This document shows, piece after piece, positions 10,262-63,999 of a DNA stretch of 64,000 bases (position 1 is its first letter; each line of letters begins with the position of its first letter). The DNA comes from Lichina pygmaea (Eukaryota; Ascomycota; Lichinomycetes; Lichinales; Lichinaceae), in contig OY730172.1 in assembly GCA_963422465.1 (NCBI GenBank), positions 3,162,001 to 3,226,000 of the forward strand, written 5' to 3'. The notes beneath the pieces are model-generated. The model did not search any database, was not told the DNA's origin, and saw only the letters and a program-made list of their open reading frames with translations. The position numbers were made by a program, and so were the translations under genes.

Positions 10262-10600
10262 TGTTAAGGCCTAGGCCGGAACAGCCCAGGTAAGCGAGGA
10301 GCTCGTCCGGTGGACGAGCAGGAGCTAAGCGAGGAGCTCGTCCGGTGGACGAGCAGGAGCTAAGCGAGGAGCTCGTCCACGCAAAAGGATGATACCCCTC
10401 GAGGAGACCCCCCCCCTTGGGGCATCTGTATAAAGACCCCCAAAGAGCCCGGAGGGATTAGCTCTCCAGGCTGAACGCACATTACGAGCGACAATAGCAA
10501 GAGAGTTACCCCACTTGCTATTCATCTATTGAGTCCCTGCCCTCCTCGGTCGAAGACAGGACCACCCACATTCTGTGTGAACGTGGACTGGCCTTTAACA
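10262..10600 (+). repeat. 5' LTR of chromovirus A1
   Basis: TGTTAAGGCC...CTTTAACA, 339 bp. U3 holds a 35-bp-period array of palindromes (10301-10380), then a TATAAAGA box near 10431, then AGGCTGAA at 10468-10475, which complements the primer-binding region just inside the LTR. Confidence 0.95.
10301..10380. promoter_or_regulatory. U3 palindrome array in the family-A LTR
   Basis: GCTCGTCCGGTGGACGAGC occurs at 10301-10319 and again at 10336-10354. Each has 8-bp perfect arms around GGT. A third half-copy lies at 10371-10380, giving a 35-bp period. The array sits about 50-130 bp upstream of the TATA box, where promoter-binding sites would be expected. The same GGACGAG/CTCGTCC words, in a different arrangement, fill the U3 of A2 and of the solo LTR at 47602-47993. 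Confidence 0.7.
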
Positions 10601-10610
10601 GTTTCAGCCT
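10601..10610 (+). other. Probable self-priming primer-binding site of chromovirus A1
   Basis: The bases directly after the LTR read GTTTCAGCCT. TTCAGCCT (10603-10610) is the exact complement of AGGCTGAA (10468-10475), which lies about 37 nt after the TATA box, near the likely RNA start. Tf1/sushi chromoviruses prime reverse transcription from the folded-back 5' end of their own RNA, and this layout fits. The same pair is present in copy A2. Confidence 0.6.
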
Positions 10611-13600
10611 CTAACACATAGGACACCGGCTCAATACGATGGCAGATCCACGCAGCCCTACCCCTTCGCAGGCAGGCCAACCTCGGGCTGCGCCTCAGGC
10701 GCAAGCCCAGGAACCACCTGTCCCTACCACCCTCACCTTACCTCCAAAGCCGTTGAAGGTAGGTACGCCGAAGAGGTACGATGGATCACGAGGGGGATTG
10801 GAATTATTCTTCTCTCAGCTTGAGCTTTACTACAGATTCAACGCCGCACAATTCCCTACGGAACAGGAGAAGGTGCTGTTCGCAGCTTCCTACCTGGACG
10901 GACCGACATTTGCCTGGTTTAATGTCTACCTACGAGACTTCCTCGACAACAAGGAAGATCCCTCTAGCATGGAGACCACGACATGGCAGATCATTGGGAG
11001 ATTCTCTACCTTCAAGACCCAGATGAAGAAGACCTTCGGGGTCATTGATGAAGAACGAGATGCGGAACGAAAGCTCCAAGCACTACGGCAGACAGGGTCA
11101 GCATCAGACTTCGCGGCGAAGTTCCAACAGTTGTCAGTGAGGACGCAATGGGGAGACAGTGCCTTGACGGCACTATTCTACCAAGCTCTCAAGGAACGAG
11201 TCAAGGATGACATCGCACGAGGAGATCGACCCACCGACCTCGAGGATATGATTGACACAGCGGTACGCATCGACGACCGACAGTTTGAACGAGAACTCGA
11301 GAAGCGAGGCAAGCATGCAAGGCCATGGGGCAAAAAGACAGCGCCAGCACAAGACAAGTACGGCTTGACACCCATGGAGATCGATGCAACAACACCACAG
11401 GCAACAAAGAAGAAAGAAACACGGAAGTGTTACAATTGCCAGAAGGTAGGACACCTCGCAGCCAACTGCCAAAGCAAGAAGAAGAAAGAAGGCAAGGGTA
11501 AGCAGTTGAATGCCACCGGTGCCTGGAAAGGCAAGGGCATTCAGGAGCCACCGAGGGCTCCCAGAGGCACGCTACCCATGAACCGGTCAGAAGCAACACT
11601 CCTCGGACAGGAGGACAATCTCAGACAGCACATCGAAAGACTGGAGAACGATCTACAGAGGTCACTGGAGGACCTGCACACAATCCAAGACCAGATCGAT
11701 AAGGTTCATTGGGAGGATGACCTGATCTCCGAATTCGACACAACAGACTACGAGATTGACATAACCGGCATGCCACCAGTTCCCGAGACACCACTACTCC
11801 GACGACAGGATGCGACCTTGTCGGAGGACGGCGAAGCAAGAGTGACGCGATGGGTGGACGACACCATCAGCATCTCACAGCCCCGAGACATCGCAGCGCA
11901 AGTGGACTATCACCAGGCTACGACACCAGCCTGCAGACGTCCTTATTGGAAAGGATGTGAGGACCACCACTGCAAGGAACATCTCCTAGAGAAAAGGAGA
12001 AGGCACCACTTCCCTGGCCCAGAATACCACAAGAAAGCCTGGAGCATCAAGCACCAGCTAAGCCAGCAAGGGAAAGAACGTGATGATTGCGGAGAAGACG
12101 CATGGGAGCTATGCTTCACTGAAAAATGCGAAAGACACGCGGCAGAACGCCAGGCTCAGGGCCTTGGTTGTTCAAAAAACTAGCAGTGCTCTTCAAATCC
12201 GGAGTCGGAAGAGCAGGCAAGACAACACTCCGGAGAGAAGGGGTCGAGCAGAGCCTCGACGCGACAGCCTGCAGTCCGCATTTTCGCATCAAGATGAGAG
12301 TCAACGGGCATCTGACAAATGCCATGATCGACTCTGGAGCTACTGGCAACTTCATGTCAGAAAGTTTCGCCAGGAAGCACAAGATCCCGACTCAGGAAAA
12401 GAGGAATCCATACCAACTAATGGTAGTGGACGGGACACCACTCTCCAACAACCAAGGACAAGTGATGAAGGAGACCAAGAACCTACGACTGTGTGTCGAC
12501 GGTACGACAATCGGATCAGAAGAATTCGACTTGGTCCAGATACCACATGAAGTTATATTGGGTCTTCCGTGGTTGGAAAGTCAAAACCCAAGGATCGACT
12601 GGAAAAGAAGGCACCTAGTCTTTCCGAAGAGGAGTCTGGCAACTCGAGCAGAGCCAGAGAAAGTGAGAATCAAAGAGATCTCATATGCAGGGTGGAAGAA
12701 GCACCACCGGCGAGGGCAAGCCTATGTGGCTTGGATGAAGCCCCGAAACCATCAACTTTGCACCACGCATGACGCCGTGGGCGAGACTCAGGCACCGCAG
12801 CTGCCAAGTGAGTATAAAGACTACCAGGAGATGTTTGGTGAGGAAGCGGTCGCGATGCTACCAGAACACCAAGAGTGGGATCACGAAATTCCGCTGGAAG
12901 ACAGAAAGAAACCCACACATGGCCCTATTTACGCCCTATCAGCAAAGGAGCTTGAGGCCTTGAGAGATTACCTGGACGAGAACCTAGCGAAAGGGTTCAT
13001 AAGACCTTCAACATCATCGGCCGGATACCCGATATTGTTTGTGCCAAAGAAAGACAGCAAATTACGACTGTGTGTCGACTACCGGCAGCTTAATGCGATC
13101 ACGATTAAGAATCGCTACCCGCTACCGTTAATATCGGAAATCCAGGACTGAATCCAAGGAGCCAAGTGGTTTACCAAGTTCAACATCCGAGGCGCTTTTA
13201 ACCTGGTTAGGATGAAAGATGGCGAAGAATGGAAGACAGCCTTTCGTACGAGGTACGGGCATTACGAGTATACCGTTATGCCATTCAGCCTTACGAATGC
13301 ACCGGCGACGTTCCAATCGCTCATTAACGCCATCCTCCGACAATACCTGGATATATTTGTTACCGCTTATATCGACGATGTCTTGGTTTACACCAATGGA
13401 ACCCTGGAGGAGCACAAACAGCATGTCAAGAAGATCCTACATGCGCTCCAAGAAGCAGGAATGAGGTTACGCCTTGATAAGAGCGTCTTCCACGTGAAAG
13501 AAGTGGAATATTTGGGATCGATCCTGACGACGGAAGGAATCTGTATGGACGATACAAAGATCACGGCAGTACGAGACTGGCCAACACCCAAAAACCTCAA

Positions 13601-15549
13601 AGAAGTCCAATCCTTCCTGGGATTTGCGAACTTCTACCGACGATTCATCAAGGAGTACTCGAGGACAGCAGCACCCTTGACTGAACTAACAAAGAAGGAA
13701 GAAACCTTCACATGGGGGAACAGCCAAGAGAGAGCGTTCCAGGAGCTGAAAGAGAAGTTCACCTCCGCACCCATACTGGCATCATTTGATCCCGGACGGC
13801 AGATCATCATGGAGACAGATGCCTCGGACCAAGCACTTGGATCTTGCTTGTGTCAACCAGACGCCGAAAACCGCCTACACCCTGTCGCATACTGATCGAG
13901 AAAGTTCTCTGGCCCAGAACTCAGGTACGATGTTCATGACAAGGAGTTGTTAGTGATTGTCGACGCATTCCAGGAGTGGAGACCTTACCTGGAAGGAGCA
14001 AAGTACACAGTGGATGTGTACTCAGACCACAAGAATTTGGCTTACTTCACGACGACGAAGAAGCTAAACAGACGACAAGTCCGATGGGCGGAGCTTTTAG
14101 CTTCATACGACTTCCAGATCTTCTATCGAAAAGGATCAGAAAACGCACGAGCGGACGCGCTTAGCAGACGGCCTGATATGACGACAGACGACACGACAGA
14201 AGAGCGCCCAATCCTAGTGACAAAAGGACAAACTCTGGTCTATGCTCAACCTCAGTTAGCGAAAACTGAAGAAATGGGTGCACTCCTGACCCTAGGCCAC
14301 AACGTTGCGGCCACGAACAAGGAAGAAGTGCCAGAGAGCGCACAAGAGGACGTGATTCGACAACATCACGATGGACCTCTACACAGACATCCTGGGCGAG
14401 ACAAGACCCTGGAAAAGATCCGGAGACGTTACCACTTCAACGGAATGAAGCGGAAAGTGACGGAATTTATTCGCAACTGCGAAGAGTGTGCGAAAAACAA
14501 ACCGTCACGCCACAAACCCTATGGAGAGAGTCAACAAATGGACCTCCCAGAAGCGGCTTGGGATACTATCACAATGGATTTTGTGGTGAAGCTGCCGAGG
14601 TCAGAGGACCCGGTAACAAAAGTGAAATATGACAGTATCTTGGTGGTTGTTGACAAACTCACCAAATACGCTCACCTGATCCCGTGGCGAGAGACAGGAA
14701 CAGCGAGCGAACTCGCCAATGTCCTGCTCAAAGAATTGGTTAGCCAGCGAGGGCTACCCACGAAGATTATCTCGGATCGAGACAAACTCTTCACCTCGAA
14801 ATTCTGGAACACGTGGACAAGACAGCTAGGGATAGACACGAGGATGTCTACTGCCTACCATCCACAAACAGACGGACAAACTGAGAGAACAAACCAGACG
14901 ATGGAACAGTACCTACGCCACTACGTCAACCACCGACAGGACGATTGGGTAGAACTGCTACCAATGGCTCAGTTTGCGTACAACGATCAGCAACACAGCG
15001 TGACGGGCATGACACCGTTCTTTGCGAACTACGGCAGAAACCCCCGCTGGGAAGTGATGGCGGCTGGAAGTGGCACTTCAACGAACGTCGAAAAACTCAC
15101 TGCTATGCATGAGGAAATGAAGACTGCAATTGAATCCGCACAAAAGACAACAAGCCACCACCTAAACAGCAAAAGGTTGAAGGGACCAACCCTGGAGAGG
15201 GGGGATAAGGTCTATTTGTCAACAAAAAACCTGCGCTCGAAGCGACCGAGCAAAAAGCTGGATCATGTACGAATCGGACTGTTTGAGATTGAGAAGCGCA
15301 CTGGAGAAGTCAACTACCGACTGAGACTGCCAAAAAAGGCATGGATACACCGAGTATTCCATGTCTCGCTGCTCGAGCCAGCACCCAGCGACGCAGCAAT
15401 CGAAACAGAATGGCACTTTGAGGACGATGAAGAAGAGTACGATGTCGAAAGGATCCTAGATAGTTGAAGAAACAGACAGAAAACCGAGTACCTGGTGAAG
15501 TGGTTAGGATTTGACGAAGAGGAGAATTCGTGGGAACCAACCGAGAACT

Positions 15550-16059
15550 TCAGCTCTGCGATGAACCAGAAGCTGGTGGATTACCACCGAGCAAACCCGC
15601 AGCGACCAGGTCTGACAGGGACAACAGCTCAAGAAAAGCCAAAGTCTCTGAAGAGAAGACATCCTCAAAGGACAGCGGAGCAGCAGCCTGACTGGCCTCC
15701 CGTTCGCGGATAACGCGGAGAGCCTCTTGTTCCTGAGCATCAAGGGACTCTTGATCCTTGATGGCTGACAGCTCACGACGGATGGCATCAGCCTCCTTCT
15801 GTGAGAGACGACCCAGCTGCCGGTGGAGGTAGATCTGCCGGGGAAGCAACTTTGATAATTGGTCATCGGTCTCCCGCAGCTGAGCCTCGAGCTGCTCACG
15901 CTCAAGCTCCATCTTCTTCCATTCCGATTCCGAGAGATGAAGGTCGCAGCGACGACCCTTCTCGATACACCGACGACAAAAAGACGATGCAGAACTCACG
16001 ACACACTTGGCGTGGTCGCGACGACAAGCACCGCATGCGATTTTTGATTCCTTGCCCAT
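15550..16059 (-). CDS. Antisense Zn2Cys6-type ORF carried by chromovirus A1
   Basis: A 169-codon ORF runs opposite to pol. It starts 124 nt inside the 3' LTR and overlaps the end of the chromodomain region tail to tail. The N-terminus has C-x2-C-x6-C-x8-C-x2-C-x6-C (CGACRRDHAKC, then CRRCIEKGRRC). This is the fungal Gal4-type binuclear zinc-cluster spacing, with the usual basic residues between Cys 2 and 3. A heptad-like charged stretch follows (about residues 45-110), as in the dimerisation helix of such regulators, then an acidic/hydrophobic tail. A matching ORF occurs in copy A2 (55664-56005). A nuclear DNA-binding role is inferred from the motif alone. It is not part of the standard Gypsy gene set. 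Confidence 0.7.
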   Translation of the reverse strand: MGKESKIACGACRRDHAKCVVSSASSFCRRCIEKGRRCDLHLSESEWKKMELEREQLEAQLRETDDQLSKLLPRQIYLHRQLGRLSQKEADAIRRELSAIKDQESLDAQEQEALRVIREREASQAAAPLSFEDVFSSETLAFLELLSLSDLVAAGLLGGNPPASGSSQS

Positions 16060-16183
16060 TTTGCCAACACAACAAGAGAGAAAACTGCGACGACGAGTTC
16101 AAGTTGTCTGGCTTTGGTTCATGGCAAAAGAGGACCAGGAACAAAAAGGATCTGGGGACAGAACCCTTGGAGGGAGGGGATAG

Positions 16184-16522
16184 TGTTAAGGCCTAGGCCG
16201 GAACAGCCCAGGTAAGCGAGGAGCTCGTCCGGTGGACGAGCAGGAGCTAAGCGAGGAGCTCGTCCGGTGGACAAGCAGGAGCTAAGCGAGGAGCTCGTCC
16301 ACGCAAAAGGATGATACCCCTCGAGGAGACCCCCCCCCTTGGGGCATCTGTATAAAGACCCCCAAAGAGCCCGGAGGGATTAGCTCTCCAGGCTGAACGC
16401 ACATTACGAGCGACAATAGCAAGAGAGTTACCCCACTTGCTATTCATCTATTGAGTCCCTGCCCTCCTCGGTCGAAGACAGGACCACCCACATTCTGTGT
16501 GAACGTGGACTGGCCTTTAACA
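16184..16522 (+). repeat. 3' LTR of chromovirus A1
   Basis: 339 bp, nearly identical to the 5' LTR. A purine-rich tract (GGAGGGAGGGGATAG) lies directly upstream, at about 16169-16183, and serves as the polypurine tract. Confidence 0.95.
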
Positions 16523-17583: not shown

Positions 17584-17933
17584 CCTGACAAAACTCTTCC
17601 CAGAACCACGTTCTTCAAGGACCATCATTTTTGACAAACACCAAAAGTTGTCATATGTTCTGGAAAACAGCCGAGTTCCCCTCTGAAACCACCCAAACCT
17701 TAAGGTGAAAACCCATCACCTTTGAGAATCACACCTGTTTGTCAAAAGTTGTGATCTTGAATCCACGATCTTCTTCTTCAACAACCAGCAATCTACCCAC
17801 AACCAGAGAGAGAGTCTTAGAATGAGAGGAATGGTTAGAGTCTGACTGACTCTGGAGCTAGCAGAGTCTTTGGCTCAAGGAAAGTCTAGATAGGGGGTCT
17901 GGTCCCTAGTCTAGGTTAATACTTCTAGCTTTG

Positions 17934-19955
17934 TGTGACGAGGCAATGGCAGAGCAGAACTCAAGCCTAACTGATCCAGTAACCTTGACCTGACTTGGCT
18001 TGAGACTTGAGACTTGGATTGATGTACAAGACGAAAGACGAGGAAGGAAAAGAGAAAAGAAGAAGAGAAGAAGCTGGGGGAGCAGGAGAAGTTCTTATAG
18101 GCAGGGGATCAGGCAACAGCGGAGCAAACAGGCAAACAGTGCAGATGGGACTTCCCGGCAACGGCGGAGCATACAGGCAAACAGTGCAGATGGGACTTCC
18201 CGGCAAGGTGCGTGACTTGTGCCAGATATGCAACTGGGCCAGAACTGTGACATTACCCCCCTCCTTCACATGGCGAACTCCTGTAAGCCTCAGGCCACTC
18301 GTGGGTGTAGTTCCGTGGCTGTGGCTTCCTTGGGTATTTCTCATGGAAGTTGTAGATGGTGTCTTTAGTGTTGTCAAGATGCTCAATAGGCTCTTCAGTG
18401 GCATCTTCAATTGGCCATCCAGACTATTTGACCAGGTACTTGAACTTCTGTCAAGATGTTGCTGGCTTAGAGTCAAGGATTTCTTCAACCTGGAACTCTT
18501 CATCTGTGTCTTGACCAATGACAGGGCCAGAGTGTTTATTTGATTAGCCAGGGATAGGATTAGCAGGTGTCAGACGTAGAAGGGAAATGTGAAAGACAGG
18601 GTAGATCTTGAGAGTGTGTGGAAGCTCCAGATGGCAGGCACAGCTTCCGACTGTCTTCAACATCTTGAATAGTCCAATCCACTTGTCGTCAAGCTTTTTG
18701 CATGGGTGGTGTGTCCTGATGTTCTTGGTATTCAGCCAAACAAGATCTCCAGTTTGATAGGACAGTGATAGGACTTGATGCAAATTGGCAGTGTGAGCTT
18801 GAGCTTCCTGGGATAGTCGGAGTTCAGCTTGCAACTGTTCCAGAATCTGTGTTATTTCTCCAGAGATTTCCATAGCATCTTGGTTGCAGGCTTCACTCAT
18901 GGGTGTGATGCTGAGCTGTGGATGGAACCCTTTGTTGGCTGAAGTGGCACGCAACTGGTTGTCCTGCAGCTGGCATTCCTCAACAAGCTTCTGATAGCTG
19001 ATGTCCTTGAGGTTGATGCTGACAAGCTGCTTGGCAAGCTCTTCAGAGACAGCACATCAAAGATGGCACTTCAAAGCCTTGTTGTTGAAGCCTGTGCGTG
19101 GAGCATACTGATTGAACTCTGTGAAGAACTTGGCAAAGAAACAGTTGGCCTGACACAAGGTGATGAGCTTCCCCTGAGCTAGGAACTCTGGGTCTGGGTC
19201 AGAGAAGGTGTTCTGGAGATCTTGGATGATGTTGTGCCAGTCAATGTACTGGCCAGCTGTGATCTTAGCTGAGATGTAGGACTGCGCAGTGCCAGTTGTG
19301 CGTGAAAAGACATACGCAATCCACAATGTTTCCGTGGAGTACCAATCAGTGTTGAGTGTCATCTTGAGTGACAGTGACATGATGAAGCTCTCAAGCTTCT
19401 CATACGTGATTTCCGTGTTTCCACCATTGCCACTGAAGATCTCTGGGTCAACAGTGTGTTCAGACTTGGACTTGGGAGTGGTGTTGGTAGCTTGAATTCA
19501 CATGAACTCTGCAAACATGTTGTGAAGGAACTTGTTATTTCCAGCAACTGGCATAGCTTGGTCTGGTTGTTGAGACATGACAAGGACATGAACATGGCTT
19601 GGTGAAGTGTGTTATGGTTGGGTTGGTCTTTCGTAGTGTGACAAGGCAATAGCAGAGCAGAACTCAAGCCTAACTGATCCAGTAACCTTGACCTGACTTG
19701 GCTTGAGACTTGAGACTTGGATTGATGTACAAGATGAAAGACAAGGAAGGAAAAGAGAAAAGAAGAAGAGAAGAAGCTGGGGGAGCAGGAGAAGTTCTTA
19801 TAGGCAGAGGATCAGGCAATGGTGGAGCAAACAGGCAAACAGTGCAGATAGGACTTCCCAGCAACAGCGGAGCATACAGGCAAACAGTGCAGATAGGACT
19901 TCCCGGCAAGGTGTGTGACTTGTGCCAGATATGCAACTGGGCCAGAACTGTAACA
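17934..19955 (-). mobile_element. Short, internally deleted chromovirus family-B element (fossil)
   Basis: Two LTRs (17934-18252 and 19637-19955, about 319 bp each) and a 5-bp TSD CTTTG (17929-17933 and 19956-19960) enclose only the two ends of the family-B interior: the integrase C-terminus/chromodomain end and the gag end. The central coding part is absent. Because both LTRs, the TSD and the end regions are kept, it may have moved as a non-autonomous derivative helped by full copies, or it may have shrunk after insertion. It carries several breaks. Confidence 0.88.
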
Positions 19956-32835: not shown

Positions 32836-32994
32836 CCTATCACTGTACATAGGGCATCCTATAGTGTCTGAAGAAGAGAGTATATAGCAGCTGCTTCAAA
32901 TAGCAACACTACACATCCTATAAATTGTAGCAGTAGTGTTGCTGTCAGGTGCTACTTACAGCTATCTCACAATAATTTGCAGCTGCCAAAGCAG
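32836..32994. other. Spacer before chromovirus B2
   Basis: AT-rich; no gene seen. Confidence 0.5.
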
Positions 32995-35900
32995 CGTGAC
33001 AAGGCAATAGCAGAGCAGAACTCAAGCCTAACTGATTCGGTAACCTTGACCTGACTTGGCTTGAGACTTGAGACTTGGATTGATGTACAAGACAAAAGAC
33101 AAGGAAGGAAGAAAAAGAGAAAAGAAGAGAAGAAGCTGGGGGAGCAGGAGAAGTTCTTATAGGCAGGGGATCAGGCAACAGCGGAGCAAACAGGCAACAG
33201 TGCAGATGGAACTTCCCGGCAAGGTGTGTGACTTGTGCCAGATATGCAACTGGGCCAGAACTGTGACATTACCCCCCTCCTTCACATGGCGAACTCCTGT
33301 GAGCCTCAGGCCGCTTGTGGGTGTAGTTCTGTGGCTGTGGTTTCCTTGGGTATTTCTCATGGAAGTTGTAGATAGTGTCTTTGGCGTTGTCAAGATGCTC
33401 AATAGGCTCTTCAGTGGCATCTTCAATTGGCTATCCAGACTATTTGACCAGGTACTTGAACTTCTGTCAAGACGTTGCTGGCTTGGAGTCAAGGATTTCT
33501 TCAACCTGGAACTCTTCATCTGTGTCTTGACTAATGACAGGGCCAGGGTGTTCATTTGATTGGCCAGGGATAGGATTAGCAGGTGTCAGATGTAGAAGGG
33601 AAACGTGAAAGACAGAGTGGATCTTGAGAGTGTGTGGAAGCTCCAGATGGCAGGCACAACTTCCGACTGTCTTCAACACCTTGAATAGTCCAATCCACTT
33701 GTTGTCAAGCTTTTTACATAGGTGGTGTGTCCTGATATTCTTGGTATTCAGCCAAACAAGATCTCCAGTTTGATAGGACAGTGACAGGACTTGATGCAAA
33801 TTGCCAGTGTGAGCTTGAGCTTCCTGGGATAGTCGGAGTTCAGCTTGCAACTGTTCCAGAATCTGCATTATTTCTCCAGAGATTTCCATAGCATCTTGGT
33901 TGCAGGCTTCACTTGTGGGTGTGATGCTGAGCTGTGGATGGAACTCTTTGTTGGCAAAGAACAGTGACATGCCAGAGGAATCAGACTGGGAGTTGTTCTG
34001 CGTGAACTCTGCCAGAGGAAGCTATTGGACCCAGTCATCTTGGAGATAGTTGACATAGGATCTCAGGTAGTGTTCAAGCTCCTGATTCTCTTGTTCTGTC
34101 TGACCATCTGTCTCTGGGTGGTGTCCTGAGGATAGTCGTAGCATGACATCAAGATGGGCACAGAGTGCTTTCCAGAATGAGCTGACAAACTGACCTCCTC
34201 TGTCTGAGACAATGCTCCTGGACAAGCCATGGGTACAGACAACAAACTGGATAAACATCCGGACAAGATGCGAGGTTGTCATCTCAGCACATAGCACAAA
34301 GTGGTGTTCTTTGGTGAGACAGTCAGTGATAACCCAGATGTGCTTGGCACCAGGGAAGCAGGTATCTCTTGACTTAGGCAAGTCAGTAATAAAATCCATA
34401 GCCAGATCCTGCCAACATTGCTGAGGCACGGGAAGAGACAGCAGCTCTCCTTGGTGATCACAGGCAGGCTTTGCTTGAGAGCAGACATAACAATTCCTGA
34501 TGTACTGCTGTATGATGTTCACTATCTTTGGCCAATAGTACTAACAAGACAGAAGATTGTGGGTCTTGGCAATCCCAGTGTGGCCAGCCATTGCTTGGTC
34601 ATGGGCTTCTTGGAACAGGTGTAGGTGTAGATTATTGTTCTCAGGGATCCAGAGTCAGTTCTTGTAGAAGAGATAGTTATTTTCCAAGCTGCAGTCTGAG
34701 AGAGACACTTCTTGACTGTGCCTGACACTATCTCTTAGCATCTGTGACACTGTTGCCACTGGATCACCTTCAGCAAGGTTGTTATAGGCAGCTTGGATGA
34801 TGTCTGAAAGAGGTGTAGCATCAGGTTTAGTGTCAACTGGTACAGCTTCTGAACATCTCAGGATCTGGATAGGCTTGACTTGAACCTCTGAATGTGCAAG
34901 ATTCTTGGGCTTGAGGACGACTTGCTCCATGAAGTCTTGACAGGGATCACTATCTGACAGGAGGTCTTGGGAACGTTGAGTGAGGGTGTCAGCCTTGCAC
35001 TGACTGCCTGGACAGTAGCTGATCTTGAAATTAAAGTGTGACAAGAACTCACTCCAACAGGCTTGACGGTGGGAAAGGCACTTTGATAACATGAAGTACT
35101 TCAAGTTCTTGTGATCAGAGATCACCTTGACAGGTTCTGGAGATCTTTCAAGCTCTGCTCACCATTCTTCGAAGGCATAGACAATTGCCAGCAACTCTTT
35201 GTCGTAGATCTTGTAGTTGTATTCTGCTGGCTGATGGTGGTGTGACAAGAAGGCAACAGGGTGTAGAACTCCTTCATGGTCTGGCTGTGACAGGACAGCA
35301 CCAGAGACATAGTCAGAAGTGTCAGTCTCAACAACACACTCCTTCTCCAGATCAAAGTGCTGCAGGATAGGTGCAGTGCTGAACACCTTCTTGATACTTT
35401 CAAACAAGCGCTGCTCTGGGGTTTCCCACTTGAAGGCAACATTCTTCTTGGTCAGAGCTGTGAGTGGGGATGCAAGCATGGCAAAGTCTTTGATGAGCTG
35501 GTGGTAGAAGTTTGCAAAGGCAATTAAGCTCTGCACTTCCTTGAGACTGGCAGGAGGCTTCCACTCCTTGATGGCATTGGTCTTGGCTGGGTCTATGCTC
35601 ACAGATCTGGGTCAGCTGTCTTCAGTGGCAGACTGAATGATGAGGCCAAGGTACTTGACTTGATACACTTCAAAGTCACACTTGGAGATGTCAACTTGCA
35701 GGCTTGTGTCTTGTAGTTGACTGAGAACAAGCTTGACATGCTTCTGGTGTTCCTTGAGTGTCTGACTGTAGACAAGGATGTCATCCACATAGGCAGTGCC
35801 AAAGACGTCAAGGATGTCAGGTCCCAAAACATCATTGATGTAGTTCTGGAATGTGCTTGGAGTATTGGCAAGACCAAAAGGCAGGACAAGGTATTTGTAG

Positions 35901-47601: not shown

Positions 47602-47993
47602 TGTTAAAGGCCGGGCCGGGTTCACACAGAAACCAGTACGGTCTGTTACTTCGCAAGGGCGGATTCTAGACAGGGGCTCGATAGAGGAATAGACAGGTGG
47701 GGTAACTCTCCTGTGCTATTGCCTCAGTACGATGGGTTTGTATTGTTTGTTCAGCCTGGAGAGCTAATCCCTCCGGGCCCTTTGGGGGGTCTTTATACAG
47801 ATGCCCCAAGGTGGGGGTCTCCTCGAGGGGTATCATCCTTTTGCGTGGACGAGCTCCTCGCTTAGCTCCTGCTCGTCCACCGGACGAGCTCCTCGCTTAG
47901 CATCTGCTCGTCCACCGGATCGGTCGGATGTTGTTCCGCATGACTAACACTCCTCCCTCGCTTACCCGGGCTGTTCCGGCCTAGGCCTTAACA
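47602..47993 (-). repeat. Solo LTR of chromovirus family A (variant)
   Basis: 392 bp, TGTTAAAGGCC...GGCCTTAACA on the plus strand. It carries TGCTCGTCCACCGGACGAGC-type inverted repeats and a TATAAAGA box. Flanking 5-mers (GTAGA and TCTGA) differ, so there is no TSD. Together with the truncated LINE on one side, this suggests ectopic recombination or a deletion. Confidence 0.88.
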
Positions 47994-55198: not shown

Positions 55199-55611
55199 TG
55201 TTAAAGGCCAGTCCACGTTCACACAGAATGTGGGTGGTCCTGTCTTCGACCGAGGAGGGCAGGGACTCAATAGATGAATAGCAAGTGGGGTAACTCTCTT
55301 GCTATTGTCGCTCGTAATGTGCGTTCAGCCTGGAGAGCTATTCTCTCCGGCTATCTGGGTTCTTATATACAGGAGCCTGAGGGGGGGGGGTCCTCCCGAG
55401 GGGTATCAGCTTTCTGCGTGGACAAGCTGGACGAGCTGGTTACACATCGTCCACCTCGTCCACCGGGTCGGGTGAACATTGTTCCCGTGGACGAGCTGGA
55501 CGAGCTGGTTACACATCGTCCACCTCGTCCACCGGGTCGGGTGAACATTGTTCCGTGTACCTCTGTACACTCGCTTCGGTTGGCTCAGCCGTTCCGGCCT
55601 GGGCCTTAACA
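55199..55611 (-). repeat. 3' LTR of chromovirus A2
   Basis: 413 bp, TGTTAAAGGCC...GGGCCTTAACA. U3 carries two 69-bp tandem units (55417-55485 and 55486-55554) built of GGACGAGCTGGACGAGC followed by TCGTCCACCTCGTCCACC. On the element's strand these lie upstream of TATATAAG. Confidence 0.93.
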
Positions 55612-55663
55612 CCATCCCCTCCCTCCAAAGGTTCTGTCCCCAGATCCTCTCGCTTCTCTTACC

Positions 55664-56005
55664 ATGACCCGGACATCTCGTGTTAATCGTCGTGGAGTCC
55701 TCAGTTCTCGTGTTGGCAAGATGGGCAAGGTATCCAAAGTTTCATGCAGCGCATGTCGTCGTGACCGTGCCAAGTGTGTCGTCAGTTCAGAGTCCACATT
55801 TTGCGGTCAGTGCCTTGAGAAGGGTCGCCGTTGTGATCTCCATCTCGCGGAGTCGGAGTGGGAGAAGATGGAGCTTGAGCGCACTCAGCTCGACTTCTTC
55901 TCTTCGGAGGCTTTGGCTTCTCTCGAGCCTTTGTCTCCATCGATCCTGGCTTCTGCGGGTTTTGTCGGTGGAAACTCCGCAGTTTCTCGTTCGTCGCAGG
56001 GCTGA
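55664..56005 (+). CDS. Antisense Zn2Cys6-type ORF carried by chromovirus A2
   Basis: 113 codons, convergent with pol, beginning about 50 nt inside the 3' LTR. It contains CSACRRDRAKC and CGQCLEKGRRC in C-x2-C-x6-C-x8-C-x2-C-x6-C spacing, exactly as in copy A1. The shared DLHLAESEWEKMELER-type start of a helix and a similar hydrophobic tail follow. It is shorter than the A1 version in the helical part. The conservation of all six Cys and the basic loop between two diverged copies argues that the ORF is real rather than a shadow of pol. Confidence 0.65.
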   Translation: MTRTSRVNRRGVLSSRVGKMGKVSKVSCSACRRDRAKCVVSSESTFCGQCLEKGRRCDLHLAESEWEKMELERTQLDFFSSEALASLEPLSPSILASAGFVGGNSAVSRSSQG

Positions 56006-59000
56006 AGTTCTCGGTGGGTTCCCACGAGTTCTCCTCATTGTCATACCCTAACCACTTGACCAGGTATTCGATTTTCCGTCCACTTCTCCGGCTGTCTAGG
56101 ATCCTCTCGACATCGTACTCTTCTTCATCGTCCTCGAAGTGCTATTCTGTTTTGATTGCTGCGTCGCTGGGTGCTGGCTTGAGCAGCGAGACGTGGAATA
56201 CTCGGTGTATCCGTGCCTTTTTTGGCAGTCTCAGTCGGTAGTTGACTTCTCCAGTACGCTTCTCAATCTCAAACAGTCCGATTCGTACATGATCCAGCTT
56301 TTTGCTCGGTCGCTTCGAGCGCAGGTTTTTTGTTGACAAATAGACCTTATCCCCCCTCTCCAGGGTTGGTCCCTTCAACCTTTTGCTGTTTAGGCGGTGG
56401 CTTGTTGTCTTTTGTGCGGATTCAATTGCAGTCTTCATTTCCTCATGCATAGCAGTGAGTTTTTCGACGTTCGTTGAAGTGCCACTTCCAGCCGCCATCG
56501 CTTCCCAGCGGGGGTTTCTGCTGTAGTTCGCAAAGAACGGCGTCATGCCCGTCACGCTGTGTTGCTGATTGTTGTACGCAAACTGAGCCATTGGTAGCAG
56601 TTCTACCCAATCGTTCTGTCGGTGGTTGACGTAGTGGCGTAGGTACTGCTCCATCGTCTGGTTTGTTCTCTCAGTTTGTCTGTCTGTTTGTGGATGGTAG
56701 GCAGTAGACATCCTTGTGTCTATCCCTAGCTGTCTTGTCCACGTGTTCCAGAATTTCGAGGTGAAGAGTTTGTCTTGATCCGAGATAATCTTCGTGGGTA
56801 GCCCTCGCTGGCTAACCAATTCTTTGAGCAGGACATTGGCGAGTTCGCTCGCTGTTCCTGTCTCTCGCCACAGGATCAGGTGAGTGTATTTGGTGAGTTT
56901 GTCGACAACCACCAAGATACTGTCATATTTCACCTTTGTTACCGGGTCCTCTGACCTCGGCAGCTTCACCACAAAATCCATTGTGATGGTATCCCAAGCC
57001 GCTTCTGGGAGGTCCATTTGTTGACTCTCTCCATAGGGTTTGTGGCGTGACGGTTTGTTTTTCGCACACTCTTCGCAGTTGCGAATAAATTCTGTCACTT
57101 TCCACTTCATTCCGTTGAAGTGGTAACATCTCCGGATCTTTTCCAGGGTCTTGTCTCGCCCAGGATGTCTGTGTAGAGGTCCATCGTGATGTTGTCAAAT
57201 CACGTCCTCTTGTGCGCTCTCTGGCACTTCTTCCTTGTTCGTGGCCGCAACGTTGTGGCCTAGGGTCAGGAGTGCACCCATTTCTTCAGTTCTCGCTAAC
57301 TGAGGTTGAGCATAGACCAGAGTTTGTCCTTTTGTCACTAGGATTGGGCGCTCTTCTGTCGTGTTGTCTGTTGTCATATCAGGCTGCCTGCTAAGCGTGT
57401 CCGCTCGTGCGTTTTCTGATCCTTTTCGATAGAAGATCTGGAAGTCGTATGAAGCTAAAAGCTCCGCCCATCGGACTTGTCGTCTGTTTAGCTTCTTCGT
57501 CGTCGTGAAGTAAGCCAAATTCTTGTGGTCTGAGTACATGTCCACTGTGTACTTTGCTCCTTCCAGGTAAGGTCTCCACTCCTGGAATGCGTCGACAATC
57601 GCTAACAACTCCTTGTTGTGAACATCGTACCTGAGTTCTGGGCCAGAGAACTTTCTCGATCAGTATGCGACAGGGTGTAGGCGGTTTTCAGCGTCTGGTT
57701 GACACAAGCAAGATCCAAGTGCTTGGTCCGAGGCATCTGTCTCCATGATGATCCACTGTCCGGGATCAAATGATGCCAGTATGGGTGCGGAGGTGAACTT
57801 CTCTTTCAGCTCCTGGAACACTCTTTCTTGGCTGTTCCCCCATGTGAAGGTTTCTTCCTTCTTTGTTAGTTCAGTCAAGGGTGCTGCTGTCCTCGAGTAC
57901 TCCTTGATGAATCGTCGGTAGAAGTTCGCAAATCCCAGGAAGGATTGGACTTCTTTGAGGTTTTTGGGTGTTGGCCAGTCTTGTACTGCCGTGATCTTCG
58001 TATCGTCTATACGGATTCCTTCCGTCGTCAGGATCGACCCCAAATATTCCACTTCTTTCACGTGGAAGACGCTCTTATCAAGGTGTAACCTCATTCCTGC
58101 TTCTTGGAGCGCATGTAGGATCTTCTTGACATGCTGTTTGTGCTCCTCCAGGGTTCCATTGGTGTAAACCAAGACATTGTCGATATAAGCAGTAACAAAT
58201 ATATCCAGGTATTGTCGGAGGATGGCGTTAATGAGCGATTGGAACGTCGCCGGTGCATTCGTAAGGCTGAATGGCATAACAGTATACTCGTAATGCCCGT
58301 ACCTTGTACGAAAGGCTGTCTTCCATTCTTCACCATCTTTCATCCTAACCAGGTTGAAAGCACCTCGGATGTTGAACTTGGTAAACCACTTAGCTCCTTG
58401 GATTCAGTCCTGGATTTCCGATATTAACGGTAGTGGGTAGCGATTCTTAATCGTGATCGCATTAAGCTGCCGGTAGTCGACACACAGTCGTAATTTGCCG
58501 TCCTTCTTTGGCACAAACAATATCGGGTATCCGGCCGGTGATGTTGAAGGTCTTATGAACCCTTTCGCTAGGTTCTTGTCCAGGTAATCTCTTAAGGCCT
58601 CAAGCTCCTTTGCTGATAGAGCGTAAATAGGGCTATGTGTGGGTTTCTTTCCATCTTCCAGCGGAATTTCGTGGTCCCACTCTTGGTGTTCTGGTAGCGT
58701 CGCGACCGCTTCCTCACCAAACATCTCCTGGTAGTCTTTATACTCACTTGGCAGCTGCAGTGCCTGAGTCTCGCCCACGGCGTCATGCGTGGTGCAAAGT
58801 TGATGGTTTCAGGGCTTCATCCAAGCCACATAGGCTCGCCCTCGCCGGTGGTGCTTCTTCCACCCTGCATATGAGATCTCTTTGATTCTCACTTTCTCTG
58901 GCTCTGCTCAAGTTGCCAGACTCCTCTTCAGAAAGACTAGGTGCCTTCTTTTCCAGTCGATCCTTGGGTTTTGACTTTCCAACCACGGAAGACCCAATAT

Positions 59001-60954
59001 AACTTCATGTGGTATCTGGACCAAGTCGAATTCTTCTGATCTGATTGTCGTACCGTCAACACACAGTCGTAGGTTCTTGGTCTCCTTCGTCACTCGTCCT
59101 TGGTCGTTGGAGAGTGGTGTCCCGTCCACTACCGTTAGTTGGTATGGATTCCTCTTTTCCTGAGTCGGGATCTTGTGCTTCCTGGCGAAACTTTCTGACA
59201 TGAAGTTGCCAGTAGCTCCAGAGTCGATCATGGTGTTTGTCAGATGCCTGTTGACTCTTATCCTGATGCGAAAATGCGGACTGCAGGCTGTCGTGTTGAG
59301 GCTCTGCTTGACCCCTTCTCTCCGGAGTGTTGTCTTGCCTGCTCTTCCGACTCCAGATTTGAAGAGCACTGCTAGTTTTTTGAACAACCAAGGCCCTGAG
59401 CCTGGCGTTCTGCCACATGTCTTTCGCATTTTTCGGTGAAGCATAGCTCCCATGCGTCTTCTCCGCAATCATCGTGTTCTTTCCCTTGCTGGCTTAGCTG
59501 GTGCTTGATGCTCCAGGCTTTCTTGTGGTATTCTGGGCCAGGGAAGTAGTGCCTTCTCCTTTTCTCTAGGAGATGTTCCTTGCAGTGGTGGTCCTCGCAT
59601 CCTTTCCAATAAGGACGCCCGCAGGCTGGTGTCGTAGCCTGGCGATGGTCCACTTGCGCTGCGATGTCTCGGGGCTGTGAGATGCTGATGGTGTCGTCCA
59701 CCCATCGTGTCACTCTTGCTTCGCCGTCCTCCGACAAGGTCGCATCCTGTCGTCGGAGTAGTGGTGTCTCGGGAACTGGTGGCATGCCGGTTATGTCAAT
59801 CTTGTAGTCTGTTGTGTCGAATTCGGAGATCAGGTCATCCTCCCAATGAACCTTATCGATCTGGTCTTGGATTGCGTGCAGGTCCTCCAGTGACCTCTGC
59901 AGATTGTTCTCCAGTCTTTCGATGTGCTGTCTGAGATTGTCCTCCTGTCCGAGGAGTGTTGCTTCTGACTGGTTCATGGGTAGCGTGCCTCTGGGAGCCC
60001 TCGGTGGCTCCTGAATGCCCTTGCCTTTCCAGGCACCGGTGGCATTCAACTGCTTACCCTTGCCTTCTTTCTTCTTCTTGCTTTGGCAGTTGGCTGCGAG
60101 GTGTCCTACCTTCTGGCAATTGTAACACTTCCGTGTTTCTTTCTTCTTTGTTGCCTGTGGTGTTGTTGCATCGATCTCCATGGGTGTCAGGCTGTACTTG
60201 TCTTGTGCTGGCGCTGTCTTTTTGCCCCATGGCCTTGCATGCTTGCCTCACTTCTCAAGTTCTTGTTCGAATTGTCGGTCGTCGATGCGTACCGCTGTGT
60301 CGATCATATCCTTGAGGTCGGTGGGTCGGTCTCCTCGTGCGATGTCATCCTTGACTTATTCCTTGAGAGCTTGGTAGAATAGTGCTGTCAAGGCACTGTC
60401 TCCCTATTGCGTCCTCACTGACAACTGTTGGAACTTCACCGCAAAGTCTGATGCTGACCCTGTCTGCCGTAGTGCTTGGAGCTTTTGTTCCGCATCTTGT
60501 TCTTCATCAATAACCCCGAAGGTCTTCTTCATCTGGGTCTTGAAGGTAGAGAATCTCCCAATGATCTGCTGTGTCATGGTCTCTATGCTAGAGGGATCTT
60601 CCTTGTTGTCGAGGAAGTCTCGTAGGTAGACATTGAACCAGGCAAATGTCGGTCTGTCCAGGTAGGAGGCTGCGAACAGCACCTTCTCCTGTTCCGTAGG
60701 GAATTGTGTGGTGTTGAAACTGTAGTAAAGCTCAAGCTGAGAGAAGAATAATTCCAATCCCCCTTGTGATCCATCGTACCTCTTCGGCGTACCTACCTTC
60801 AACGGCTTTGGAGGTAAGGTGAGGGTGGTAGGGACAGGTGGTTCCTGGGCTTGCACCTGAGGCGCAGCCTGAACTTGGCCTGCCTGCGAAGGGGTAGGGC
60901 TGTGTGGATCTGCCATCATATTGAGCCGGTGTCCTATGTGTTAGAGGCTGAAAC

Positions 60955-61368
60955 TGTTAAAGGCCAGTCCACGTTCACACAGAATGTGGGTGGTCCTGTC
61001 TTCGACTGAGGAGGGCAGGGACTCAATAGATGAATAGCAAGTGGGGTAACTCTCTTGCTATTGTCGCTCGTAATGTGCGTTCAGCCTGGAGAGCTATTCT
61101 CTCCGGCTATCTGGGTTCTTATATACAGGAGCCTGAGGGGGGGGGGGTCCTCCCGAGGGGTATCAGCTTTCTGCGTGGACAAGCTGGACAAGCTGGTTAC
61201 ACATCGTCCACCTTGTCCACCGGGTCGGGTGAACATTGTTCCCGTGGACGAGCTGGACGAGCTGGTTATACATTGTCCACCTTGTCCACCGGGTCGGGTG
61301 AACATTGTTCCGTGTACCTCTGTACACTCGCTTCGGTTGGCTCAGCTGTTCCGGCCTGGGCCTTAACA
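60955..61368 (-). repeat. 5' LTR of chromovirus A2
   Basis: 414 bp with the same two U3 units, several with CG changed to CA or TG. GTTTCAGCCT directly inside it (minus strand, 60945-60954) again complements AGGCTGAA in the LTR. Confidence 0.93.
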
Positions 61369-61395: not shown

Positions 61396-63999
61396 TCACA
61401 GAGATGATAGGTTTTCTGGTAAGAGTTGGTGTGCTAAGTTAAACTGGTCTAGTCTTTTCAAAGACATAAACCAGAGAAGAAATTCTTTAAGCACTTTAGG
61501 CTTTTGAAGTAAAGTAGAGAAATTGTAGGAAAGAAAAGTGGCTTGCTGTCTTTGAGTAAGAAACTTGTTACAAGAGAAAGTGATATGTTGAGTAGTCTCT
61601 TCTCCAAAACCACAGGAACATAGAGAGGATTGGAAGTCTGGAACATTTGCTCTGAAAAGAAAGCTGGCTAGTCCTATCCTTGCTGATAGAATCTGTAAGT
61701 AAAGACTAGCTTCAGCTTTTCTCAAGTCTTTGAAAACTTTGAGATCTTTCCTTTGGGGTAGTCTGCAAAATAGCTCCCAGACTGGAGAACACTTCTGTCT
61801 GTTTGCCTGCCATCTGGCTTCCCACTCTTTCTGAAACACTTCTTGAAATTGTTTCTTAGAGTAATCTTGGTTAGTGATTAGTTCTTCTAGCCATCTTGCT
61901 TTCCAGTTAGGTGTGACAGTAGACAGAGACTTTGGAGGTGTTCTCAGAGTAGAAACAAAAACAGTGATCTGGGAAAAGAGCTTATAGAGAAGTGAGGAGA
62001 GAGGATTAGAAGAAGTATTAGAAAAATAGAAAGATTGTAGGAAAGTTGCTGTTCTGAATTTGAAATAAAGATCAAGAGGTGGTAGGAATAGTTCTCCTTC
62101 AATAAGAAATGTAGGAGTAGCTTTGAAGACACCTCCTGTAGTTTTTAGACACTTAGTCTGGAAAAGATTTAGAGAAGAAATATTAGAAGGTTTTTTGTGG
62201 GGATTGAACCAGACTCCTACTGCATAGCTGAGAAGTGATCTCAGTATTGCAGTGTAGACAAGTCTAGCAGAGAGAACAGGTAGACCCCATGTAGAAAAAG
62301 TAGTTCTGGAAAGTGCTGAGAAAAACTTGGAAGCTTTCTGTAACATGATTTTCTGGTGTTTTTTCCAGAGAAGCTTGGAATCATAGTGTAGTCCCAGAAT
62401 ACGCACTTCTTTCTTAGACTGTAGTACCACTTCTCCAAGTCTTAGACTGAGCTGAAGATTATCTGTTCTTCTTCTAGAAAAATGGAGAAGTTTATACTTT
62501 TCAGGTGCAAACTTCATTCCATGTTTTCTTGCCCAGTCTAAACACTTGGAGTGAGTAGACTTTAGCTTCAGGAGATTGCTTTTAAGAGAAGGGGAAAATG
62601 CCAGAAGGTTTGTGTCATCTGCAAAGCCCAGAGCTGATACACCTTTCTCTGGTGTATGAACAATATTATGAAGATCTGAAATATAGAAAAGAAATAAAAT
62701 AGGAGAGAGAGGTGAACCTTGAGAGACTCCACAGTGTACTGGAAACAAAGAAGACTCTGAATCATCAAAAACAAGAGAGGTTTTTCTTTGAGTAGTGAAA
62801 GAAAAGATCCAGTTAACAAACCAGCTGGGGATTCCTTTTCTCTCCAGGATTTTCTTGAGAATTTCTGGCAGAACTCTATCATAAGCTCCTGAGATATCCA
62901 GAGAAAGAAGACTGGCTACCATTCCTTCCTTCCAGACTTTTTCAACTTGGGAAGTGAGTAGAAATAGTGCAGACTCAGTTGATCTTCCTTTTCTGAAGCC
63001 CATCTGGATTTCTGGTAGCAGGTTTTCTTTCTCAGCCAGTTCACTTAGCTTTGTGGCTGCCAGAGCTTCCATCAGCTTCCCAATTGTGTTGAGAAGTGCT
63101 ATTGGCCTCCAAGCTTTGGCATAGCAATAGGATCCTTTGCTAGACTTTCTCAAGCATATTGTTCTGGCTGCTTTGTATCTGTCAGGGAAATATTCTAGCT
63201 TCCAGCAGGCTTCCAGAACTTTGGCTATCTTTTCATTGAAAGAGTCTCCTAATACCTTTAGAAATCTGTTGGGTAGAGTGTCTTTCCCAGGAGCTGTAAA
63301 AGGTTTTTTCTTTTTCAAAATATTGTGTATATCTTCTTTGGAGATTTCCTGAGATAGCTGGTGTTGTTGGTGGTTGGCTGGCTGGTCCTGGGATTCTGGT
63401 ACTGGCTGGAGAGGTAGAGGGAAGAACTGGGTTTTGAATACTTCTACCTTTTCTGTGAAAGTTCTGGCAGTTTCTCCATCTTGCTTTGTGAGCTCTGGAA
63501 CAATTGGAAGTTCTGGTGGTTTGCCAGCTTTTTCTTTACCCCACTTGGCTATTTTCCAGTGCTTTTGTGTTTCAGCCAGGTTCTGGAGTTGTTCTCTGAA
63601 TATCTTTCCTTTAGCATTCTTGATCAGGTGTTTCTTTTCCTTTATTACCTTTTCAAGTTTGTAGACTGGTTCTTGGTTTTGGAAGACTTTTCTTCTTAGT
63701 TTTCTTTCCTCTTTAATTTTCTCTTTAATCTCTTGGTTCCACCAGGGAACAGTGTACTTTGAGTCTCTCAGAGGTCTTGTTGTCTTGTCAGCCAGTTCTT
63801 GAAGAGCTTTGTCCAGGTTCTCCTGATAGTTGTCCACTTCCTCTCTGTTAAGTAGTGGTGGAATAGGGGGAAGATTCTTAGCTTCTTTCTTGACTTGGTC
63901 CAGATCTAGTGTTCTCCAGTTTCTTTGGTGGGTTCTGGCTTTCTTTGGTGTTTCCAGACTTAGGATTGTCTGAACTGGTCTGTGGTCTGAACCTGTGTG
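61396..63999 (-). CDS. LINE C ORF2 (end of APE endonuclease + RT), open, 5' incomplete
   Basis: 868 codons open from the window edge to the stop at 61396. It begins at THTGSDHRPVQT of the endonuclease; the true start lies beyond 64000. RT motifs: MGFRKGRSTESAL, SLDISGAYDRV, GVSQGSPLSPIL, GFADDTNLLA (about 62614-62625). The C-terminus has CSCGFGEETTQHITFSC, then LAHQLLPENLSSL. No RNase H block is visible between RT and the Cys motif. TGG is present where LINE A1 and A2 have TAG (WKIAKWGKEK). It may encode an active reverse transcriptase if the unseen part is intact. Confidence 0.92.
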   Translation of the reverse strand, partial: HTGSDHRPVQTILSLETPKKARTHQRNWRTLDLDQVKKEAKNLPPIPPLLNREEVDNYQENLDKALQELADKTTRPLRDSKYTVPWWNQEIKEKIKEERKLRRKVFQNQEPVYKLEKVIKEKKHLIKNAKGKIFREQLQNLAETQKHWKIAKWGKEKAGKPPELPIVPELTKQDGETARTFTEKVEVFKTQFFPLPLQPVPESQDQPANHQQHQLSQEISKEDIHNILKKKKPFTAPGKDTLPNRFLKVLGDSFNEKIAKVLEACWKLEYFPDRYKAARTICLRKSSKGSYCYAKAWRPIALLNTIGKLMEALAATKLSELAEKENLLPEIQMGFRKGRSTESALFLLTSQVEKVWKEGMVASLLSLDISGAYDRVLPEILKKILERKGIPSWFVNWIFSFTTQRKTSLVFDDSESSLFPVHCGVSQGSPLSPILFLFYISDLHNIVHTPEKGVSALGFADDTNLLAFSPSLKSNLLKLKSTHSKCLDWARKHGMKFAPEKYKLLHFSRRRTDNLQLSLRLGEVVLQSKKEVRILGLHYDSKLLWKKHQKIMLQKASKFFSALSRTTFSTWGLPVLSARLVYTAILRSLLSYAVGVWFNPHKKPSNISSLNLFQTKCLKTTGGVFKATPTFLIEGELFLPPLDLYFKFRTATFLQSFYFSNTSSNPLSSLLYKLFSQITVFVSTLRTPPKSLSTVTPNWKARWLEELITNQDYSKKQFQEVFQKEWEARWQANRQKCSPVWELFCRLPQRKDLKVFKDLRKAEASLYLQILSARIGLASFLFRANVPDFQSSLCSCGFGEETTQHITFSCNKFLTQRQQATFLSYNFSTLLQKPKVLKEFLLWFMSLKRLDQFNLAHQLLPENLSSL

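Follow-up and report, generated by a model that had tools for sequence, protein, structure and literature searches.

The stretch of Lichina pygmaea DNA analysed here (termed the window; 64,000 nucleotides of contig OY730172.1) contains two copies of an LTR retrotransposon, termed family A, on opposite strands. Copy 1 spans positions 10262-16522, has LTRs of 339 bp (338 of 339 positions equal) and is flanked by the target duplication CTCCC; copy 2 spans 55199-61368 on the other strand, has LTRs of 413-414 bp that differ at 8 columns, and is flanked by the target duplication ATATT. Pfam identifies gag, protease, RNase H, integrase and SH3 domains in copy 1, and the chromodomain was read from the pol frame, which is broken into split ORFs and has an in-frame stop at 15467, beyond which it can be read on to its last stop at 15713. 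Family A has the gag, the protease, the RT/RNase H placed before the integrase, and the chromodomain ending pol that characterize Ty3/Gypsy chromoviruses, and in a young copy (C1:2494536), where integrase and antisense ORF adjoin it, the Chromo domain scores above the Pfam cut-off. Other features of the window include a segment at 47602-47993 (minus strand) with family-A-like LTR ends, for which the same search returned no partner in the window and which is possibly a solo LTR, and, beside copy 2 at 61396-63837 (minus strand), an 813-residue open frame whose sequence looks like that of a LINE-type reverse transcriptase. Family B, another chromodomain element (window 17900-18500 and 32960-33515), has in its two copies no antisense ORF and no room for one between chromodomain and LTR.

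Just inside the 3' LTR, on the strand opposite to gag and pol, copy 1 carries an open, ATG-initiated ORF of 169 aa at 15550-16059, termed here version A1 of the antisense gene (Table 1). Its six cysteines are spaced C-x2-C-x6-C-x8-C-x2-C-x6-C, and the same spacing occurs in the open ORF of copy 2 at 55664-56005, so that what an earlier note on this DNA had described as a six-cysteine antisense ORF in both copies is confirmed. The two ORFs share one design, as that note held, but they are not one gene sequence: copy 2 carries a different version, A2, with about 66% amino acid identity to A1 (i.e., about a third of the residues differ). Moreover, the ORF of copy 2 starts at 55664, with the homologous ATG 57 bases (19 codons) further downstream, and, compared with other A2 copies, its gene lacks 63 residues in frame, the helix among them. 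Hence the helix said to follow the cysteines is predicted in copy 1 and is gone from copy 2. The description of the ORF as lying opposite to pol likewise applies in part. Because the pol frame ends at 15713, it can overlap the antisense gene at most over 15550-15713, which is the last third of the gene; the cysteine cluster and most of the helix lie between pol and the LTR. By strand, by place, by presence in most copies and by conservation of its protein, the gene is an antisense additional ORF between pol and the 3' LTR (aORF-3R).

Table 1. Coordinates of family-A features within the window
Position	Strand	Feature	Basis or remark
10262..10600	+	5' LTR of copy 1 (family A, young backbone, A1 type), TG...CA	338/339 bases equal to 3' LTR
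10302..10378	+	Same half-site cluster as in the 3' LTR, in the 5' LTR; 5 exact half-sites	Placed by fixed offset from 3' LTR
10639..12183	+	gag ORF of copy 1 (Retrotrans_gag, zinc knuckle)	Pfam
12126..15713	+	pol region of copy 1: protease, RT/RNase H, integrase, SH3, chromodomain; broken	
15550..16059	-	Antisense gene, 169 aa, version A1	
15550..15713	.	C-terminal part of antisense gene overlapping pol tail	
15682..15930	-	Predicted long helix, residues 44-126, likely dimerising coiled coil	AlphaFold2, block-mean pLDDT 89-96 at 51-120
15946..16035	-	Six-cysteine Zn2Cys6-like cluster, residues 9-38	Pfam PF00172 16.0 bits, cut-off 21
16184..16522	+	3' LTR of copy 1	
16224..16300	+	U3 half-site cluster of 3' LTR: CTCGTCC-GGT-GGACGAG and two partial units; 4 exact half-sites	
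55199..55611	-	3' LTR of copy 2 (L089), A2-type U3	
55664..56005	+	Antisense gene of copy 2, version A2, 63 residues missing in frame	
55745..55834	+	Six-cysteine cluster of copy 2	
60955..61368	-	5' LTR of copy 2; ATATT	8/414 columns differ between LTRs

A six-frame scan of the window with a loose six-cysteine pattern returned four places, namely the two antisense ORFs and one ORF opposite gag in each copy, and none in 30 shuffled windows; a chance origin of the motif is rejected on this basis. The ORF opposite gag (at 11403 on the minus strand and 60152 on the plus strand) has the six-cysteine spacing (CLWCCCIDLHGC...) with a single basic residue, and it is probably a by-product of gag.

The antisense protein is 157-169 residues long and consists of a six-cysteine, Zn2Cys6-like cluster, a long helix and an acidic and hydrophobic tail. 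The Zn_clus family has the spacing C-x2-C-x6-C-x5..12-C-x2-C-x6..8-C. A1 and A2 conform to it exactly, as does a third protein described below (family C, with x11 in the middle), and the basic first loop and the long helix behind the cluster agree with what the earlier note had read from the sequence. Profile and structure searches point in the same direction below their thresholds of significance: the proteins P0001, P0002 and A2 score 16.0-16.6 bits against PF00172, short of the gathering cut-off of 21 bits, and Zn_clus is matched at E up to 0.1 by 11 of 13 members, with a best value of 0.0033. PF17657, an unlikely family that matches over the helix, scores similarly and is also sub-threshold (0.012 versus 0.013 for Zn_clus with P0001; best value among the members 0.0012 versus 0.0033). 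Matches to PDB sequences have E values of 0.075-0.98, none significant, and are headed by a non-zinc coiled coil followed by PUT3 or, in another search, by CYP1/HAP1. The AlphaFold2 model (mean pLDDT 76, pTM 0.34) consists of a small N-terminal unit, with block-mean pLDDT of 71-79 over residues 11-40, and one helix (44-126); of the four structures retrieved with it by Foldseek at E up to 10, three are Zn2Cys6 factors (Pho7, PUT3 and GAL4), at E values of 3.6-9.5, below significance. Judged by its sequence and model, the protein looks, and probably works, like a Zn2Cys6 factor without being filed as a curated PF00172 member; among the 38 places listed by a PF00172 search of the whole genome, none is, by eye, one of the A1 or A2 places listed. 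Searches of viral contigs with P0001 and a family-C alignment, and of prokaryote genome contigs with a family-A alignment, returned no relatives, which says little, because these collections are not fungal.

Within the genome (32.47 Mb in 8 contigs) a search with the A1 ORF gave at least 150 matches among 278 candidates, all 150 of those scored being matches. The A2 version, of 157 residues, was found with the copy-2 protein as query and is absent among the 150 matches listed for A1, probably because these cover just 150 of the 278 candidates. We read 108 places: 88 for A1 (the 8 best and 80 picked by hand from the other 142) and the first 20 listed for A2, window copy 2 among them. The frame is full-length in 59 of 74 A1 copies on an old backbone, in 13 of 14 A1 copies on a young backbone and in 18 of 20 A2 copies; the exact six-cysteine spacing is retained in 60 of the 74 old, decayed A1 copies, in 13 of the 14 young ones and in all 20 A2 copies. 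Nor is the ORF rare in the family: among the best 150 of 1034 integrase candidates, all 91 with a young backbone (i.e., at least 91% identity) precede a match to either A1 (31) or A2 (60), a count that registers presence of a match whether or not its frame is intact. Thus the loss of the ORF or of its spacing in most copies, which the earlier note had named as evidence against a gene, is not what is found. Nevertheless, the frames themselves are weak witnesses. Pairwise differences are mostly transitions (126730 versus 6614 transversions in old A1, 2112 versus 39 in young A1, 2166 versus 502 in A2), enriched at CpG and, in old copies, at CpA too, a pattern that suggests methylation-type deamination joined by a RIP-like process (L001-L088); the ATG is kept in only 21 of 74 old A1 copies. 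Because open frames can survive such decay, openness of individual copies proves little and was rejected as proof of coding; selection is judged solely from the contrast between A1 and A2. A further decayed, A2-like version with several private residues, at C2:2667000-2667600 (L115), is perhaps a third type.

The divergence of A1 and A2 is large enough for that contrast to be fair. Over 12 pairings of four A1 with three A2 copies, dN/dS outside the pol overlap is 0.10-0.15 (106-112 codons), rather than the value near 1 that the earlier note had named as evidence against its reading, and over residues 1-45 it is 0.066-0.095; with dS of 1.16-1.83 outside the overlap and with pairs that are not independent, these values are approximate. 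For one pair (L010 and L097) the 80 differences fall 21, 12 and 47 at codon positions 1, 2 and 3 (p 2.8e-6), and the other five frames of the same stretch have dN/dS values of 1.4, 2.8, 1.2, 0.37 and 2.1, and none of them is free of stops in both members of the pair. The antisense gene is protein-coding and under purifying selection. Nor is this constraint borrowed from the opposite strand, the possibility against which the earlier note had cautioned: the cysteine cluster lies past the pol stop, and within the overlap the antisense frame has a dN/dS of 0.29-0.75, whereas the pol frame over its first 33 codons there has 0.78-1.89 (9 pairings; the two stretches are similar, not identical), compared with 0.10-0.24 in the chromodomain before it. 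In the overlap, selection keeps the antisense frame, not pol, and an accident opposite pol is rejected.

The U3 region next to the gene contains repeated short motifs. In copy 1 a half-site cluster precedes the TATAAA at 16351 of the 3' LTR, and the A1 U3s shown contain, ahead of their TATA box, one to five units with CTCGTCC-GGT-GGACGAG, often 35 bp apart; in A2 U3s the A1 half-site is kept in direct repeat while the rest of the U3 has diverged. Nine U3s contain 3-12 half-sites each, compared with means of 0.04-0.18 after shuffling. Within 420 bases of the start of the LTR, at least two exact half-sites are present in 13 of 14 young A1, 37 of 72 old A1 and 19 of 20 A2 copies, and, with CpG decay allowed, in 14 of 14, 70 of 72 and 20 of 20. 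The A1 palindrome with one base free occurs 198 times and its reversed control 0 times, counted over the whole genome. Dyads number 5 versus 0.5 expected in one A1 copy (L005), 1 versus 0.2 in another (L001), 1 versus 0.4 in an A2 copy (L097), where the dyad differs from that of A1, and 0 versus 0.2 in family B; a clear excess is seen only in L005 and in family C. The half-sites differ from plain CGG repeats, and the tandem units may simply have expanded. (The first family-B copy has U3 tandem repeats with neither antisense gene nor dyads.) The cluster at 16224-16300 is a candidate target of the antisense protein.

The gene and this promoter region are also inherited as one block. Between an A1 and an A2 copy (L001 and L097) the compared integrase part is 97-100% identical, falling to 93% over the 100 columns at its end; across the chromodomain, the ORF and the U3 identity is 47-89% per 100-column block, lowest in the U3 repeats; and past the TATA box the last 42 compared columns are identical. 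Two A1 copies (L003 and L001) give the reverse pattern, with pol at 62-88% and chromodomain through ORF at 93-97%. When the 108 copies are typed for integrase, ORF, U3 and U5, in that order, 72 are old-A1-A1-old, 14 are young-A1-A1-young and 20 are young-A2-A2-young; typing is incomplete in two (L047, without U3 and U5 calls, and L066, without a U5 call). ORF and U3 types agree in 107 of 107 typed copies, as do U5 and integrase types in 106 of 106. In other words, the antisense gene travels with the U3 promoter, not with the integrase or the U5, and gene and promoter have been exchanged between backbones. In retroviral replication the 3' end of the RNA supplies the U3 and the 5' end the U5, so that one template switch in the chromodomain gives the observed typing. 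Since adjacency and a single switch account for the linkage, linkage alone is no proof that protein and promoter interact.

A similar arrangement is found in family C. All six chromodomain neighbourhoods read for this chromovirus (L109-L114) contain a six-cysteine frame at the same place and on the same strand as in family A, with the spacing C-x2-C-x6-C-x11-C-x2-C-x6-C. The frame is open over 166 residues in two (L110 and L113), stops after 134 residues in one, and stops at or before about residue 107 in three; a genome search gave at least 150 matches among 510 candidates (all 150 scored were matches), most with TGA stops. The protein has no Pfam match, and its model in L113 has a helix at 66-148. 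With just two transversions, and transitions at all codon positions, the codon contrast in family C has no power for selection. In a comparison of the A and C profiles the cysteines align, the match having a probability of 12.6%; position, architecture and this weak match suggest that the two proteins are homologous. The L113 U3 contains 13 GTGAGC half-sites versus 0.6 expected and 8 dyads versus 0.6, the dyad being GTGAGC-AGA-GCTCAC. One CCGGTCACGTGACCGG palindrome (CGG-N8-CCG) also lies in this U3 (636-972), and a TATATAAA-like box, noted by eye, lies close to the start of the LTR on the antisense strand, which would suit leftward transcription of the antisense gene.

The earlier note had proposed an element-borne regulator, and the frequency of the gene, its cysteine spacing and its dN/dS argue for this, DNA binding and regulation being what we infer. 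Specifically, the antisense gene is an accessory gene of a Ty3/Gypsy chromovirus and probably encodes a dimeric transcription factor that acts on the element's own LTR. It would be transcribed leftward from or near the 3' LTR, whose U3 sits just upstream of its start codon; the protein would fold a Zn2Cys6 cluster, dimerise via its helix and bind the repeated half-sites of the U3; binding to the same sites in the 5' LTR would set the transcription of genomic RNA; and gene and target, being adjacent at the U3, would be passed on together in one template switch. The acidic and hydrophobic tail makes activation slightly likelier than repression. More tentatively, at least two fungal chromovirus families may each encode their own dedicated promoter-binding factor on the antisense strand beside the U3, with the regulator-plus-promoter block swapped between backbones by template switching. 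If so, mobile elements come with promoter switches of their own, which they trade, and can swap their regulatory identity as a unit, thereby escaping or capturing transcriptional control.

Much of the same evidence, that for DNA binding and for U3 linkage, would also fit a repressor that binds the U3 and either limits the element's own copy number or silences competitors sharing that U3; indeed, once gene and U3 had been swapped as a block, the repressor made by resident elements would no longer act on it, in keeping with two versions on one backbone. We regard this as unlikely, since the strong conservation of a gene by a selfish element is more readily understood when the element benefits from it, and the tail would seem to resemble an activating more than a repressing region. 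Fold and family matches below significance leave some room for a role outside transcription, such as import into the nucleus, the choice of integration sites or the handling of RNA, in which the cysteine cluster would contact nucleic acid or protein, and a review of plant elements proposes, in the sections covered, that such proteins serve in nuclear entry or in the manner of accessory proteins (PMC7264820); the exact Zn2Cys6 spacing, the basic first loop, the long helix and the half-site clusters in the linked U3 make such a role quite unlikely. That the antisense RNA matters instead of the protein, through double-stranded RNA silencing, or that the ORF arose by accident on the strand facing a constrained pol, is extremely improbable: antisense transcripts could feed silencing (PMC7264820, in the sections covered), but codon-level selection acts in the antisense frame only, extends past the pol stop and coincides with a relaxed pol tail in the overlap, so that the dN/dS values of both frames refute either as a full explanation.

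Host Zn2Cys6 factors have a middle homology domain. Those that rank high in our lists of weak matches (PUT3, HAP1/CYP1, LEU3, Pho7 and GAL4) share with the antisense protein the six-cysteine design, the basic first loop and the helix behind it; unlike them, the antisense protein is small and lacks that domain, and every match to them is sub-significance. HBZ of HTLV-1, a spliced bZIP, is likewise a regulatory protein encoded antisense in a retroelement, but in an animal retrovirus, whereas here there are a zinc cluster and apparent U3 half-sites. It is cited as an antisense-encoded example in a study of Retand-type plant Gypsy elements (PMC11963269, in the parts covered), which, according to the same parts, have an antisense TRP28 ORF between pol and the 3' LTR that probably binds DNA, tandem repeats nearby and a proposed regulatory role. 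Retand and family A are thus alike in the place of the antisense ORF, predicted DNA binding, nearby tandem repeats and proposed regulation; they differ in that Retand is a plant non-chromovirus with a Transposase 28 protein and a region of 2.9-6.6 kb, versus an ORF plus spacer of about 0.6 kb here, and the parts of PMC11963269 covered give no selection test or U3 co-inheritance. Closest in host and element is brtn, an additional antisense gene of Boty-like Gypsy elements in Botrytis cinerea (described in passages of PMC7264820, PMC4227169, PMC8365987 and PMC5987419; Zhao et al. 2011, Virology 417:248, via citations): these too are fungal Gypsy elements with a chromodomain and an extra antisense gene, placed by PMC7264820 among pol-to-3' LTR genes, while the citing passages, on whose description the comparison is based, mention neither U3 linkage nor binding sites.

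LTR retrotransposons are already known to carry antisense genes in this position, Retand of plants and brtn of Botrytis being examples. Among the top literature matches, none was found to report an antisense gene of the Zn2Cys6 kind for fungal Gypsy elements, a claim that the content of the brtn paper could narrow; term searches gave no mention of antisense or zinc in PMC11540331 (Blastomyces elements) and no mention of antisense in PMC3248453 (a fungal LTR survey) or PMC4427930 (Paracoccidioides), the part of PMC10799480 covered holds nothing on such a gene, and the Histoplasma genome paper, in the part covered, annotates elements by gag/pol similarity and LTRharvest (PMC8725592). As far as searched, three things are new: the identity of the protein as a zinc-cluster one, the test for selection and the linkage to U3. 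In the passages of the plant papers covered, the function of antisense genes beside the 3' LTR is called unknown (PMC7264820, PMC11963269); here a signature of DNA binding can be recognised in such a gene, selection on it has been measured, it exists in two versions on backbones that are almost the same, and the promoter to which it is linked contains candidate sites.
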